Assembly (NCBI GenBank): GCA_018402735.1
Contig: JAGYIF010000002.1
Location: 310,001 to 374,000, forward strand
Direction of reading: 5' to 3'
Source: Pelagibacteraceae bacterium
GTDB taxonomy: Bacteria > Pseudomonadota > Alphaproteobacteria > Pelagibacterales > Pelagibacteraceae
Length of the DNA stretch: 64,000 nucleotides
Within the stretch, counting starts at the first letter, position 1. The number at the start of each line of letters is the position of its first letter. A program made the translations under genes and the position numbers. Below the pieces are notes generated by a model. That model was not told the DNA's origin. It searched no databases and saw only the letters and a list, made by a program, of their open reading frames with translations. Shown here piece after piece: positions 24,127-46,090 of the stretch.

Positions 24127-25005
24127 TTAATAATTTTCTTTAATAGTTTTAATTAAATGATCAAGCTGTGCCAGGTTAGTATAATCAAAACTAATACGAC
24201 CACTTTTATTTTTTTTAGAGGATATAGCGACGGACATTCCAGTTTTATTTTGTATCTCCTCAATCAAAGAAATAATATTGGGATCCTGAAGTTTGTTTTT
24301 TTTATTTTTGCTAATGGCTCCTTTAGATTGACTGTTTTTGGCCAAAAGTTCAGCTTGGCGCACAGATAGATTATTATTCGCTATATCTTTAGCTAATTCG
24401 ACGTTGCCCTCGACATCAATAAGAGCCCTTGCATGACCTGGAGTCAGAAGACCGCTGATAACCATCTCTTGGATTGCATTGGGCAGTTTTTTAAGTCTTA
24501 AAGTGTTAGCAATATGAGCTCTGCTTTTACCAATAACTTCGGAGAGCTTGTCTTGGGTATAGTTGAACTTGCTAATTAATAATTCAAACCCACTTGCCTC
24601 CTCTAATGCGTTTAGACCTTCTCTTTGGATATTTTCTAAAACAGCAAATTCGGCAGCTAAGTTATCATCAACGTCTAGTTTAACAACTGGCACCTCATGT
24701 AATTGCGCAAGTTGCGCGGCTCTCCAACGTCTTTCCCCTGCTATAATTTCAAAATTATTCTCTCCTAGTTTTCTAACAACTATCGGCTGAATAATTCCTC
24801 TTATCTTAATAGACTGAGCAAGTTCCTCTAGTTGAGATTTGTTAAAATTTTTTCTTGGTTGATACTTATTTGGTTTTAAAAAATGAATTGCTACTTTTTC
24901 TGTATTAAAGTTTTTTTGAATTTCCTTTTCTTTTATTTCAGACTCCCCCAATAAAGCTGCCAGACCTTTTCCCAATCCTTTACCTTTGAAATTATTTAAT
25001 ACCAT
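24127..25005 (-). CDS. parB: Chromosome partitioning protein ParB
   Basis: A 292-residue ParB. An N-terminal ParA-stimulating start GLGKGLAALLGE is at residues 8-19. The ParB/Srx CTPase domain spans about 36-130 with NKYQPRKNF and the CTP-binding GERRWRAAQ. A helix-turn-helix follows near 150-190 (KLSEVIGKSRAHIANTLRL), and a C-terminal dimerisation domain closes the protein. It loads at parS and spreads as a clamp. It overlaps the parA stop by one base. A perfect parS lies about 1.4 kb upstream in rsmG. Confidence 0.97.
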   Translation of the reverse strand: MVLNNFKGKGLGKGLAALLGESEIKEKEIQKNFNTEKVAIHFLKPNKYQPRKNFNKSQLEELAQSIKIRGIIQPIVVRKLGENNFEIIAGERRWRAAQLAQLHEVPVVKLDVDDNLAAEFAVLENIQREGLNALEEASGFELLISKFNYTQDKLSEVIGKSRAHIANTLRLKKLPNAIQEMVISGLLTPGHARALIDVEGNVELAKDIANNNLSVRQAELLAKNSQSKGAISKNKKNKLQDPNIISLIEEIQNKTGMSVAISSKKNKSGRISFDYTNLAQLDHLIKTIKENY

Positions 25006-25796
25006 TACGCTGCAAAATTAAATTTTTTTTGTTTTTCTAAAATTTCTACTGCCAATTTTTCATAAGCAATAGAGCCTGCACAATATTTATCATAAACTAA
25101 AACTGGTAAACCATGAGAAGGGGCTTCTGAAATTCTAATATTTCTTGGTATTACAGTATTATATACTTGCTCACCAAAAAATTTTCTTGCTTCCGCCTCT
25201 ACTTGAGAACAAAGTTTATTTCGTTTATCGAACATAGTTAAAATTATTCCCTCGACCTCTAGAATTTTGTTTAAACTTAATTTAATTCTATTAATTGTTT
25301 TTAATAGTTGAGTTAATCCCTCCAAAGCAAAAAATTCAGTTTGTAGAGGAACAATTACTGAATTGGAAGCAACCAAAGACATGACCGTTAGCAAGCTTAG
25401 AGAAGGAGGGCAGTCAATAAGTATTTGATTATATTGATTTTTTTCTCTTATTTCATTCATTATTTCCTTTAGAATAAAAGCCCTGTTTTTGTCTTCGGCT
25501 ACTTCAGTTTCAAAGCCGGATAATTCAACATTTGCACAAATAATGTCTAAGTTTTGTATTTTAGTTTGTTTCACGTAATATTGCGAATTATTTCTCTCTG
25601 TTAAAAGTTTGTAAATAGAATTTTCTCTATCATTATTTTCTACGCCAACTCCTGTAGAAGCATTACCTTGTGGATCTAGATCTATAATTAATGTCTTTTG
25701 ACCTAACTGTGCAAAAGCACAACCAAGATTAATTGTTGATGTAGTTTTTCCTACACCACCTTTTTGATTTATTACTGAGACTACATGATTGATCAT
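25005..25796 (-). CDS. parA: Chromosome partitioning ATPase ParA
   Basis: A 263-residue ParA/Soj ATPase. The deviant Walker A KGGVGKTTST begins at residue 13, Walker A' DLDPQGNASTGVGV near 41, and Walker B ILIDCPPSLSLLTV near 122. It forms nucleoid-bound ATP dimers that pull ParB-parS complexes apart. It lies between rsmG (stop directly abutting) and parB (one-base overlap). A parS-like half site lies within its coding sequence at 25567-25576. Confidence 0.98.
   Translation of the reverse strand: MINHVVSVINQKGGVGKTTSTINLGCAFAQLGQKTLIIDLDPQGNASTGVGVENNDRENSIYKLLTERNNSQYYVKQTKIQNLDIICANVELSGFETEVAEDKNRAFILKEIMNEIREKNQYNQILIDCPPSLSLLTVMSLVASNSVIVPLQTEFFALEGLTQLLKTINRIKLSLNKILEVEGIILTMFDKRNKLCSQVEAEARKFFGEQVYNTVIPRNIRISEAPSHGLPVLVYDKYCAGSIAYEKLAVEILEKQKKFNFAA
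25567..25576 (+). other. Half parS-like sequence within parA
   Basis: TGTTTCACGT at 25567-25576 equals the first 10 of the 16 bases of parS, then diverges (AATATT in place of GAAACA). ParB normally needs the full palindrome, so this may be a decayed or weak site, or a coincidence of the codons for VKQT. Confidence 0.25.
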
Positions 25797-26414
25797 CTAG
25801 ATTCTTTGTACACTATTTATTACAAAAACTTTCGAGCCAGGTTTTGTAATGCTTTCATGTTGATCACAGTTTATTACCCAATGTTTCAAAGCTTGTTCCA
25901 TTTCTTTTTTATGGTTTTCACCTTTTAATAGCAATATTTTTTCAAAATTAATGCCGCCTTCTTCTAAAATCTCCAAAAAAATATCTAAAGGCTTAAAGGC
26001 TCTGCTTACTAATGTGCTAAAGTCATTTTTTTTTATTTTTCTAACATCATCATTATGTATTACCACATCTATTTTTAGATAATCGCACAATTCCTGTAGA
26101 TAAGTACATTTTCTTATACTTTTTTCGACTAGTTCTAATTTAAATTCAAAACCAAGGTCTTTTTTAACTAATTCCATTACTATTCCTGGAAAACCTGCTC
26201 CAGACCCAATATCTAGTATTTTTTTATCATTTTTATCAATAAATCTCATTATTTGTGCAGAATCCTCTATGTGCCTGCTCATTATTAATTCTTCTGATGA
26301 CTTAGATATTAAATTGATTTTTTTATTATATTCTATCAAAAAATCACTGTATTTGTTCAATTTATTGTATGTTTCACGTGAAACAATGCTATCAAGATAT
26401 TTTGTTTTAATCAT
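25797..26414 (-). CDS. rsmG: 16S rRNA (guanine(527)-N7)-methyltransferase
   Basis: A 205-residue SAM-dependent methyltransferase (GidB). The SAM motif ILDIGSGAGFPGIVM is near residues 65-79, and VSRAFKPLD near 125 is typical. The N-terminal motif VSRET (residues 11-15) is encoded by the parS palindrome. Position in mnmG-rsmG-parA-parB is the classical origin-proximal order. Its ATG abuts the mnmG stop and its stop abuts the parA start. Confidence 0.97.
   Translation of the reverse strand: MIKTKYLDSIVSRETYNKLNKYSDFLIEYNKKINLISKSSEELIMSRHIEDSAQIMRFIDKNDKKILDIGSGAGFPGIVMELVKKDLGFEFKLELVEKSIRKCTYLQELCDYLKIDVVIHNDDVRKIKKNDFSTLVSRAFKPLDIFLEILEEGGINFEKILLLKGENHKKEMEQALKHWVINCDQHESITKPGSKVFVINSVQRI
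26370..26385. other. parS: parS centromere site
   Basis: TGTTTCACGTGAAACA is a perfect 16-bp palindrome identical to the widely conserved bacterial parS consensus. It lies within the first codons of rsmG and encodes residues VSRET. ParB, encoded 1.4 kb further along, is expected to load here. Sequence identity is complete; binding is inferred. Confidence 0.95.
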
Positions 26415-43420: not shown

Positions 43421-44007
43421 TGTGTTTGTTGATTAAAATAATTTGTGACGGCTGCAATTGGCATTCCTAAAATAGAATTCTGATCTCCCTTAATAGTTTC
43501 AAATAGATATTTTCCTTCTCCTTCTATTTGATACACCCCATATTTCTTCATTACTTCTATACCAATTTTTTTAAGATATTTTTTTATTTCAGAATTAGAA
43601 ATTTTTTTCATTGTTAAACTGGAAGTGTCATGGTGGTGCCAAACCATGCTACCGTTTTTAGAAACACAAACTGCACTATGTAGTTGGTGCGTTTTGCCAT
43701 TTAATTGTCCCATAATGAACTCCGCCTCTTCGATGTTTTTTGGCTTACTAATATAATTATTTTCTAAATCTAAAACCTGATCTGCGCCTAAAACAAAAAA
43801 ATTAGAAAATTTACCACTAATTCTATTCGCTTTATGCTCTGCTAGACTTTTTGCTATAGCCACACAACTTGCGTTGTTTGCTTTTAGAGATTGTTTAATT
43901 TCATCTTCATCCACTCCCGAAACTTCTGTTCTTATTTCAAATCCTGCGTTTTCTAATATTGTTTTTCTTATCTCGCTTTTAGAGGCTAAAATAATATTTT
44001 TAATCAT
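43417..44007 (-). CDS. Maf-like nucleoside triphosphate pyrophosphatase
   Basis: A 196-residue Maf/YhdE-family enzyme. ILASKSEIRKTILENAGF is at residues 5-22 (S-x-x-R motif), GADQVLDLENN near 70 holds the catalytic Asp, and IEGEGKYLFETIKGDQNSILGMP near 160 is the C-terminal motif. The family removes modified or canonical nucleotides such as dTTP/UTP. It lies in the conserved ppsR-maf-aroE-coaE-dnaQ order. Confidence 0.94.
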   Translation of the reverse strand: MIKNIILASKSEIRKTILENAGFEIRTEVSGVDEDEIKQSLKANNASCVAIAKSLAEHKANRISGKFSNFFVLGADQVLDLENNYISKPKNIEEAEFIMGQLNGKTHQLHSAVCVSKNGSMVWHHHDTSSLTMKKISNSEIKKYLKKIGIEVMKKYGVYQIEGEGKYLFETIKGDQNSILGMPIAAVTNYFNQQTQ

Positions 44008-44815
44008 CAGTTTTTTTTATCTCATACATTTTTACAATAGCTGCTGCTGTTTCCTCTACTGATTTTCTTGTTACATCAATTGTTGGAATTTTTTTTGTGG
44101 TGAACATTTTCTTTGATTTGTTAACTTCATCTTTTATAAAATCGATATTCGCATAATCTTGCTGTTTATCATTCAAAAGATTCATTCTTGTTTTTCTAAT
44201 ATCAACCAGACGATCAGGATCTATGTACAACCCAACCAAAAGAGCTTTTGATTTAAAAATAAAATCTGGAACTTCATGATGAGAGACAAGCGGAATATTG
44301 CCGGTCTTAAAACCTTTTTCTGCCAAATAAATAGAGGTTGGCGTTTTGCTAGTTCTGCTTACTCCCAATAAAATTACATCTGCATCTATCATGCTCTCGA
44401 GTTGCTGCCCGTCGTCATGTGCCAGAGTGTATTGTATTGCTTCTATCTTTTTATAATATTCAGTATTTAGCTCGTGTTGTCCACTCGGACGCCTTGTTGC
44501 TTTCTCAGAGAACAAATTTTCAAATTGTGGAATTAAGTGATCTAAAACTCCAAAACATGGGATATTTAAAGATTTGCTTTCATTTTTAATAAAATTTGAA
44601 GTAGACGATTCTACTAACGTATAAAGAATTATTGGGTTGGCTGTTTTCTTGCACTGCTCCATTAGTTGAGCTGTTTGTGCGCTTGTTCTTATAAAAGAGA
44701 AATGTTGAATAGAAAATTCCATATTTCTAAACTGTGCTTTTATAGCTAAAAAAATTCTATCAAGAGTTTCTCCGGTGGAGTCCGAGACTAAAAAAAAATT
44801 ATATTTCTTGTTCAT
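44000..44815 (-). CDS. ppsR: Pyruvate phosphate dikinase / PEP synthase regulatory protein (DUF299)
   Basis: A 271-residue bifunctional kinase/pyrophosphorylase of the DUF299 family. The start FFLVSDSTGETLDRIFLAIKAQF and P-loop-like LLGVSRTSKTPTSIYLAEKG near 148 are diagnostic. It reversibly phosphorylates PPDK or PEP synthase according to ADP and phosphate. It is the first gene left of the presumed origin, transcribed away from it; the Rickettsia gene RP001 region is the comparable neighbour of hemE. Confidence 0.95.
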   Translation of the reverse strand: MNKKYNFFLVSDSTGETLDRIFLAIKAQFRNMEFSIQHFSFIRTSAQTAQLMEQCKKTANPIILYTLVESSTSNFIKNESKSLNIPCFGVLDHLIPQFENLFSEKATRRPSGQHELNTEYYKKIEAIQYTLAHDDGQQLESMIDADVILLGVSRTSKTPTSIYLAEKGFKTGNIPLVSHHEVPDFIFKSKALLVGLYIDPDRLVDIRKTRMNLLNDKQQDYANIDFIKDEVNKSKKMFTTKKIPTIDVTRKSVEETAAAIVKMYEIKKTDD

Positions 44816-44939
44816 AAGCCTGTTGATAATAATCTATAACTCAATTCAATACATTTATCATCTTCGCTACATTCAACGGCTAAGCGGTCATATGGGTTTT
44901 TCATAAAAGTATTAGATTTTATTGAACAATTAATAAAAA

Positions 44940-44968
44940 GTTAATTTTGTTTATAAGTGTAAATTAAC
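44940..44968. repeat. Inverted repeat around a DnaA-like box in the origin candidate
   Basis: GTTAATTT (44940-44947) and AAATTAAC (44961-44968) are perfect 8-bp inverted arms. The 13-nt spacer holds TGTTTATAA. The TTAAC arms resemble half sites of regulators such as CtrA but not its 7-nt spaced direct repeat. Confidence 0.6.
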
Positions 44969-45022
44969 AATCAAATTGGTAAAAAGGGTGTTTAAAAATT
45001 ATGTATAAGTTGGGAATAAAAA

Positions 45023-45040
45023 GTTAACCTCACTATTAAC
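45023..45040. repeat. Second TTAAC inverted repeat in the origin candidate
   Basis: GTTAA (45023-45027) and TTAAC (45036-45040) face each other across 8 nt. The arms match the ends of the larger inverted repeat at 44940-44968, so TTAAC occurs three times as an outward-reading half site in the gap. Confidence 0.5.
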
Positions 45041-45082
45041 ACTTCCTACCAATACTAATACTTATAATTAATTATTATATAT

Positions 45083-46090
45083 ATGAGTACATTAATTAAG
45101 AAATCTTTGAAAAATGAAAATCCTATCTGGTTAATGAGACAAGCTGGTCGTTATTTACCGGAATATCAAAAAGTAAGAAAAAAACAAAAAGATTTTATTA
45201 AATTTTGCCTAAATACAGATGCAGCAACCAAAGTTACTTTACAACCTATTAAAAGATATAATCTTGATGCTGCAATTATATTTTCAGATATTTTAATAAT
45301 TCCATATGCATTAGGACAAGAAGTTAAGTTTAAAGAAAGCGCAGGTCCAATTCTTGGAAAACCAAATCTAAAACAGTTCCAGCAAATAAAGATAAAAAAT
45401 TTTATAAAAAAAATAGAAAATGTTTACAAAATAATAAAAAAAACAAGGAAAAAATTAAATAAAGAAAAATCCTTAATTGGATTTGCAGGATCACCATGGA
45501 CTATTTTGGTTTATGTATTGAACCGAAAGTCACCTAAAAAAATAAATATTTATGAAAAAATAATAAAAAACAATCAAAGCAAACAATTTCTAAAAATTAT
45601 AGAAAAATTTATCTTCATTCACATTGAACAACAAATAAAAGCAGGAGCTGATACAATTCAGCTATTTGATAGTTGGGCTGGACTGCTAAAAAAAAAAGAT
45701 TTAAATTATTTTTGTTTTCAGCCAACAAAAAGAATAATAACAAAAATTAAAAACAAATATCCCCACATCCCTATTATATGCTTTCCCAAAGGAATAAAAG
45801 AATCAATCAGAGAATTTTGTAGCATTGTAAAACCAAATGTCTTGAGCATAGATTCAAAAATAAACCCAAATTTTATACTTAAAAAAATAAACCCAAATAT
45901 AATTATCCAAGGCGGGATGGATCCTGTTTTTTTATTTAAAAAAAAATCCCAAATGCAAAAAAAAATAAAATTTTACCTAAATAAGTTTAAAAATAGAGCT
46001 TACATTTTTAACTTGGGGCACGGTGTGCCAAAAGAGACAAGTCCCAGCACTATTCAAAACCTAGTTAACACTGTAAGAAATTTCAAATGA
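45083..46090 (+). CDS. hemE: Uroporphyrinogen decarboxylase
   Basis: A 335-residue heme-pathway enzyme making coproporphyrinogen III. The N-terminal signature PIWLMRQAGRYLPEYQKVR (residues 14-32) with the two substrate arginines is intact. GFAGSPWTILVYVL near 133, QLFDSWAGLL near 193 and GHGVPKETSP near 313 are also intact. The gene is unusually A-rich; I counted 7 G/C in the 60 bases 45541-45600, and lysine is over-represented. No Shine-Dalgarno is visible and a -10-like TATAAT lies 15 nt before the ATG, so the mRNA may be nearly leaderless. It overlaps hemH by 4 nt. Confidence 0.97.
   Translation: MSTLIKKSLKNENPIWLMRQAGRYLPEYQKVRKKQKDFIKFCLNTDAATKVTLQPIKRYNLDAAIIFSDILIIPYALGQEVKFKESAGPILGKPNLKQFQQIKIKNFIKKIENVYKIIKKTRKKLNKEKSLIGFAGSPWTILVYVLNRKSPKKINIYEKIIKNNQSKQFLKIIEKFIFIHIEQQIKAGADTIQLFDSWAGLLKKKDLNYFCFQPTKRIITKIKNKYPHIPIICFPKGIKESIREFCSIVKPNVLSIDSKINPNFILKKINPNIIIQGGMDPVFLFKKKSQMQKKIKFYLNKFKNRAYIFNLGHGVPKETSPSTIQNLVNTVRNFK

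Follow-up and report, generated by a model that had tools for sequence, protein, structure and literature searches.

The replication origins of Caulobacter crescentus (Cori) and Rickettsia prowazekii are of the hemE-COG1806 type (PMC1914354). In this study we predict that the gap between ppsR and hemE is the chromosomal replication origin (oriC) of a SAR11-type bacterium. The preliminary description of this DNA had already made this assignment, and we now regard it as nearly certain, because the skew turn, a single parS nearby, conserved box clusters, synteny and retention of the region after loss of hemE or ppsR all point to it. The location of the gap, its box array, the triplet run, the low duplex stability, the orientation of these elements, the parS site and their persistence were computed directly. 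Location and architecture are of a known kind, namely the Caulobacter/Rickettsia hemE-type origin plus a DnaA-trio element. What is new is the anchored anatomy of a SAR11 origin together with natural gene-loss controls. We found no paper describing the SAR11 origin in the open-licence literature; an earlier database prediction of it is likely.

The window analysed here is a stretch of 64,000 nucleotides (contig C12, 310001-374000) of the source genome G000, which comprises 1.32 Mb in 27 contigs. The gap and its flanking genes are:

44816 to 45082, no strand: ppsR-hemE intergenic region, predicted oriC (gap length, boxes, and skew and parS in relatives)
44000 to 44815, minus strand: ppsR (Kinase-PPPase, PF03618/COG1806/DUF299; Pfam 3.6e-85), flanking gene
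45083 to 46090, plus strand: hemE (uroporphyrinogen decarboxylase; Pfam 1.6e-91), flanking gene

As noted in the preliminary description, this is the longest ORF-free gap in the window (267 bp; the runner-up has 177 bp), it is A/T-rich (24.0% GC vs 31.5% window-wide) and ppsR and hemE diverge from it. The neighbours named there agree with Pfam as well, with ppsR (Kinase-PPPase), maf, aroE, coaE and a dnaQ-like exonuclease on the ppsR side and hemE, hemH, UPF0093/hemJ and rho on the hemE side. AT-richness is weak evidence, since other gaps in the window are equally AT-rich, and the inverted repeats that had been listed in favour of an origin were rejected as an origin part and given no weight: their matches are imperfect and represent AT-rich noise. 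In all relatives of family f1 that have both genes (22 loci) ppsR adjoins hemE. The locus shares with the Caulobacter/Rickettsia origin the identical two flanking genes, an AT-rich intergenic region and DnaA boxes, but the SAR11 gap is shorter and its boxes are mostly of a one-off TTATNAACA type. HemE is 85% identical to a Pelagibacteraceae MAG homologue, the sole close match in the genome contig scan, which marks the source as a SAR11-type bacterium. Positions 1 to ~162000 of contig C12 (loci L005-L008, L142) have ~60% GC, followed by a sudden fall to ~30% without Ns, a step that looks like a chimeric contig; the window sits in the ~30% GC part, which agrees with the relatives.

Six 9-mers in the gap match TTWTNCACA with one mismatch, compared with a mean of 1.25 in shuffled sequences, where six were reached in 1 of 500. 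In the source genome's own gap we found neither a perfect TTWTNCACA box nor the canonical TTATNCACA box. The predicted boxes outside the hemE-side block are:

44809 to 44817, minus strand: DnaA-box-like TTATGAACA across the start codon of ppsR; less certain and in part coding
44821 to 44829, minus strand: weak DnaA box TTATCAACA; relatives L028-L030 have TTATTCACA, TTATACACA or CTATCCACA there
44948 to 44956, minus strand: weak DnaA box TTATAAACA; L027 and L028 have TTATACACA at the matching place
45000 to 45008, minus strand: weak DnaA box TTATACATA, with the next box 11 bp away
45011 to 45019, minus strand: weak DnaA box TTATTCCCA; perfect TTATTCACA in L017 and L020

The earlier reading had counted one 8/9 and two 7/9 boxes and had expected few canonical ones. 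Boxes are indeed present and canonical ones are few, but the count was too low and weak TTATNAACA-type boxes are numerous. The comparison of the same gap across relatives that it had proposed revealed boxes conserved across genera (22 family gaps, 12 genera). In the 22 family gaps we found 129 boxes with at most one mismatch where 41.9 were expected (sd 6.1), and 11 perfect boxes where 1.7 were expected. Most of the excess is due to TTATNAACA (42 vs 2.9 expected), followed by TTATNCATA (14 vs 2.0) and TTATNCACA (7 vs 0.7). When only one gap per genus was taken to limit shared descent, TTATNAACA occurred 22 times (1.7 expected) and in 11 of the 12 genera; its density in all intergenic DNA of the complete relatives is 0.2-0.3 per kb. 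The gap ranks first among box clusters both in the window and in what was sampled of G005, G008, G010 and G014, but not in the DNA sampled from G021.

Among the DnaA proteins read, ARPRQ (VRPRQ in genus g4) and RDHTT are kept. Since the RDHTT helix is intact, the off-consensus TTATNAACA-type boxes are more likely to be weak sites than signs of a new DnaA specificity, and we judge an altered specificity to be unlikely. In the helix-turn-helix of DnaA from genus g4 (L207, L208), ARPRQ is replaced by VRPRQ and GRDHTTV by NRDHTTI, and the gap of this genus (L030) carries canonical TTATACACA.

CtrA and GANTC sites, and exact IHF consensus sites, were rejected as conserved origin parts after testing in the gaps. 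One CtrA-site-like sequence was noted:

44930 to 44944, plus strand: TTAA-N7-TTAA, CtrA-site-like, not conserved and judged to be due to chance

The window's gap contains no exact match to WATCAANNNNTTR (the IHF consensus; exact matches alone were scored) and no GANTC, which is missing from 21 of 22 family gaps. No CtrA scored above the curated cut-off in 41 order members, whereas one of the named control genomes passed; the model derives from Rhodobacter-type proteins, so that a very divergent CtrA could score below the cut-off. The four OmpR-type regulators examined in the source genome score below it. The window's gap thus differs from the Caulobacter/Rickettsia origin in being without conserved CtrA sites, exact IHF consensus and GANTC, and it also differs from the origins of Wolbachia, Ehrlichia and Anaplasma, which keep CtrA sites in most strains (PMC1914354). 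CtrA sites do not define the hemE-type oriC, because they are also missing in some of its accepted members (PMC1914354).

Next to hemE the gap ends in a conserved block with the following elements:

45024 to 45032, plus strand: upstream box of a tandem pair, TTAACCTCA (7/9); TTAACCACA in L018
45033 to 45041, plus strand: downstream box of the tandem pair, CTATTAACA (7/9); TTATTAACA in L017
45046 to 45069, plus strand: DnaA-trio-like run CTA CCA ATA CTA ATA CTT ATA ATT (3'-GAT-5' type, opposite strand)
45053 to 45083, no strand: candidate unwinding element; judged by nearest-neighbour energies, no other 30 bp in the 64 kb are less stable

The order is tandem boxes TTAACCTCA-CTATTAACA, CTTC, the triplet run and AATTATTATATAT up to the hemE start, and the tandem boxes point towards the triplets with a 4-nt spacer. 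In the bacterial basal origin unwinding system (BUS) of B. subtilis and others, the boxes that adjoin the trios must keep their orientation (PMC6669920, PMC8287927). In sequence the block resembles the BUS: it has tandem boxes that face CTA/ATA triplets across a 4-nt spacer, and an AT-rich stretch. Unlike the BUS, the window has boxes of only 7/9 and a CCA second triplet that interrupts the run. For these two reasons the window's own gap fails the published BUS single-box rule as coded, which asks for at least three in-phase trios in the correct direction, no more than 16 bp from a box that has two mismatches at most. Of the 22 family gaps, 8 pass this rule (a mean of 0.8 and a maximum of 4 in shuffles), as do 2 of 8 gaps of the sister family f2. 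Because the own copy fails, the trio assignment is treated as likely, and trio-type unwinding at the hemE side is what we would expect with reasonable confidence.

The location could be right and the hemE-side triplets nevertheless not a DnaA-trio, with opening elsewhere in the gap, in an E. coli-like manner or by another protein. Apart from the failed strict rule, the AT-richness of the entire gap would fit this, as would the lack of triplet runs by a simple rule in L021, L028, L030, L034 and L036. We consider it unlikely, however, as triplets of one sense next to boxes are encountered repeatedly, both in the class and in sister family f2, and the lowest duplex stability coincides exactly with the triplet region. 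Of the 22 family gaps, 13 have runs of at least four CTA/ATA-like triplets near hemE, against a mean of 2.0 and a maximum of 7 in shuffles. In 30 class loci, ACTAC upstream of hemE occurred 13 times in hemE sense and once in antisense (shuffles: mean 2.9, max 6), in several class hemE loci directly after a box such as TTATCCACAGG. The f2 block is cleaner, e.g. TTATAAACAAATTCACAGGTACAACTACTACTACTATTCTATATATAAATATATATG in L043; a clean form CTACTACTACTA is seen as well. Many distant alphaproteobacteria (L151, L153, L155-L158, L160, L164) carry a DnaA-box-like sequence and ACTAC-type triplets just upstream of hemE. It is possible that a box with ACTAC triplets upstream of hemE is a class-wide unwinding element.

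Since ppsR and hemE are divergent, both of their promoters must sit in the gap, and TATAAT is present at 45063-45068, ~15 nt before hemE. The gap might hence be only a divergent ppsR/hemE promoter region, with the hemE-side block as the hemE promoter; dual use of the gap is possible. As the whole explanation this is highly improbable, given what natural gene losses reveal. In the complete genome G014, hemE, hemH and hemJ are missing at the locus and the order is ppsR, a gap of ~350 bp and rho. Even so, triplets and tandem boxes are kept in this gap (TTAACCCCATTATAAACATGACCTAATAACAAAACTAACTTATATAAATATAATTATT), which is also where skew and box cluster continue to place the origin. Conversely, no ppsR was found in the seven f2 genomes examined, and despite this loss the block is kept upstream of hemE, beside maf. 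The block survives loss of either neighbour and is therefore not merely a hemE or ppsR promoter. Nor is it a feature of promoters to have boxes enriched or adjacent to one another. In f2 the predicted origin stays by hemE while the other flank changes (maf), much as in the hemE-COG1253 origins of Wolbachia, Ehrlichia and Anaplasma (PMC1914354); G014 is unlike these in having lost hemE itself, the origin being retained beside ppsR. Two further observations concern hemE. At the G014 locus (C1 ~141300-141700, L177) the loss of hemE-hemH-hemJ is possibly a haem-pathway change in a complete SAR11-family genome, the sole HemE-like match genome-wide being 32% identical and located at 718 kb. In G005, a complete single-contig genome, hemE (L023) is divided between two frames (239 + 94 aa), through an indel in the sequencing or because the gene is broken.

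The preliminary description had also proposed GC skew as a check on the origin. Because the source genome is too fragmented, skew was determined in five complete relatives (~25-42% sampled), and because gene strand dominates raw GC skew, we used a strand-corrected model of third-position GC (GC3). The outcome was divided: skew turns at most 25 kb from the gap in three relatives and gives no signal in the other two. In G010 the best skew origin is 1,090 kb and the gap lies at 1,089.6 kb, with a signal that 0 of 200 block permutations attain; the two positions are 140 and ~141.5 kb in G014 (0 of 200) and 1,180 and 1,155 kb in G021 (1 of 200). Replichore skew is not significant in G005, which belongs to the source genus, or in G008 (155 and 91 of 200 permutations, respectively). 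With the origin set at the gap, the leading strand holds 58-68% of coding bases in the five complete relatives.

In many bacteria oriC lies beside dnaA. Many pipelines and genome start points assume an origin there, which in our case would be 72 kb off; the G010 record itself starts at dnaA, ~72 kb away from where skew places the origin. In G014 and G021 skew resolves positions only coarsely and hardly separates the gap from dnaA (1.1 and 0.4 nats, respectively), whereas in G010 the gap is favoured by 13 nats, and only G010 clearly excludes dnaA. An origin at dnaA is extremely improbable. Wherever both share a contig, dnaA is 64-73 kb from the gap. No box cluster is found at dnaA: any 300 bp near it hold no more than one box in G000 and no more than two in the seven relatives examined. 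The position of parS points the same way, being 8-20 kb from the gap but more than 40 kb from dnaA. In the window these elements are:

26370 to 26385, no strand: perfect parS TGTTTCACGTGAAACA, single in the genome, 18.4 kb from the gap and beside parA/parB
24127 to 25005, minus strand: parB, adjoining parA
25005 to 25796, minus strand: parA, adjoining parB

The parS and parAB that had been cited as support from 18 kb away thus hold up, and exactly one parS (at most one mismatch) per genome was found near the gap in 8 of 8 genomes.

With the gap as the predicted origin, initiation might proceed as follows. DnaA, encoded 72 kb off, would bind across the gap to the array of mostly weak TTATNAACA / TTATNCATA boxes. 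With the help of this array and of the tandem boxes at 45024-45041, a DnaA filament would be loaded onto the CTA/ATA run next to them. The filament may open the very unstable TTATAATTAATTATTATATAT immediately upstream of hemE, so that the helicase can enter. ParAB at parS, 18 kb away, would then segregate the new origins. DnaA binding, filament loading and the exact opening point are in this scheme predictions from the arrangement of the motifs.

An origin fixed in SAR11-type genomes, 64-73 kb from dnaA, matters for genome orientation and for growth rates estimated from read depth, where one tool sets the origin at dnaA (PMC7852909). The gap also supplies short DNA targets for direct biochemistry. 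It also emerges which parts of an alphaproteobacterial origin outlast genome streamlining: boxes and unwinding block are retained, whereas CtrA sites can be lost, as can one or the other of the flanking genes. More tentatively, and with some doubt on our side, SAR11 origins might represent a variant class of compact origins, made up almost entirely of weak TTATNAACA-type boxes, with an unchanged DnaA, without CtrA control or GANTC. If this were true, initiation would rest mainly on the DnaA level and the trio element, and a very abundant ocean lineage would possess a minimal, lightly regulated origin.
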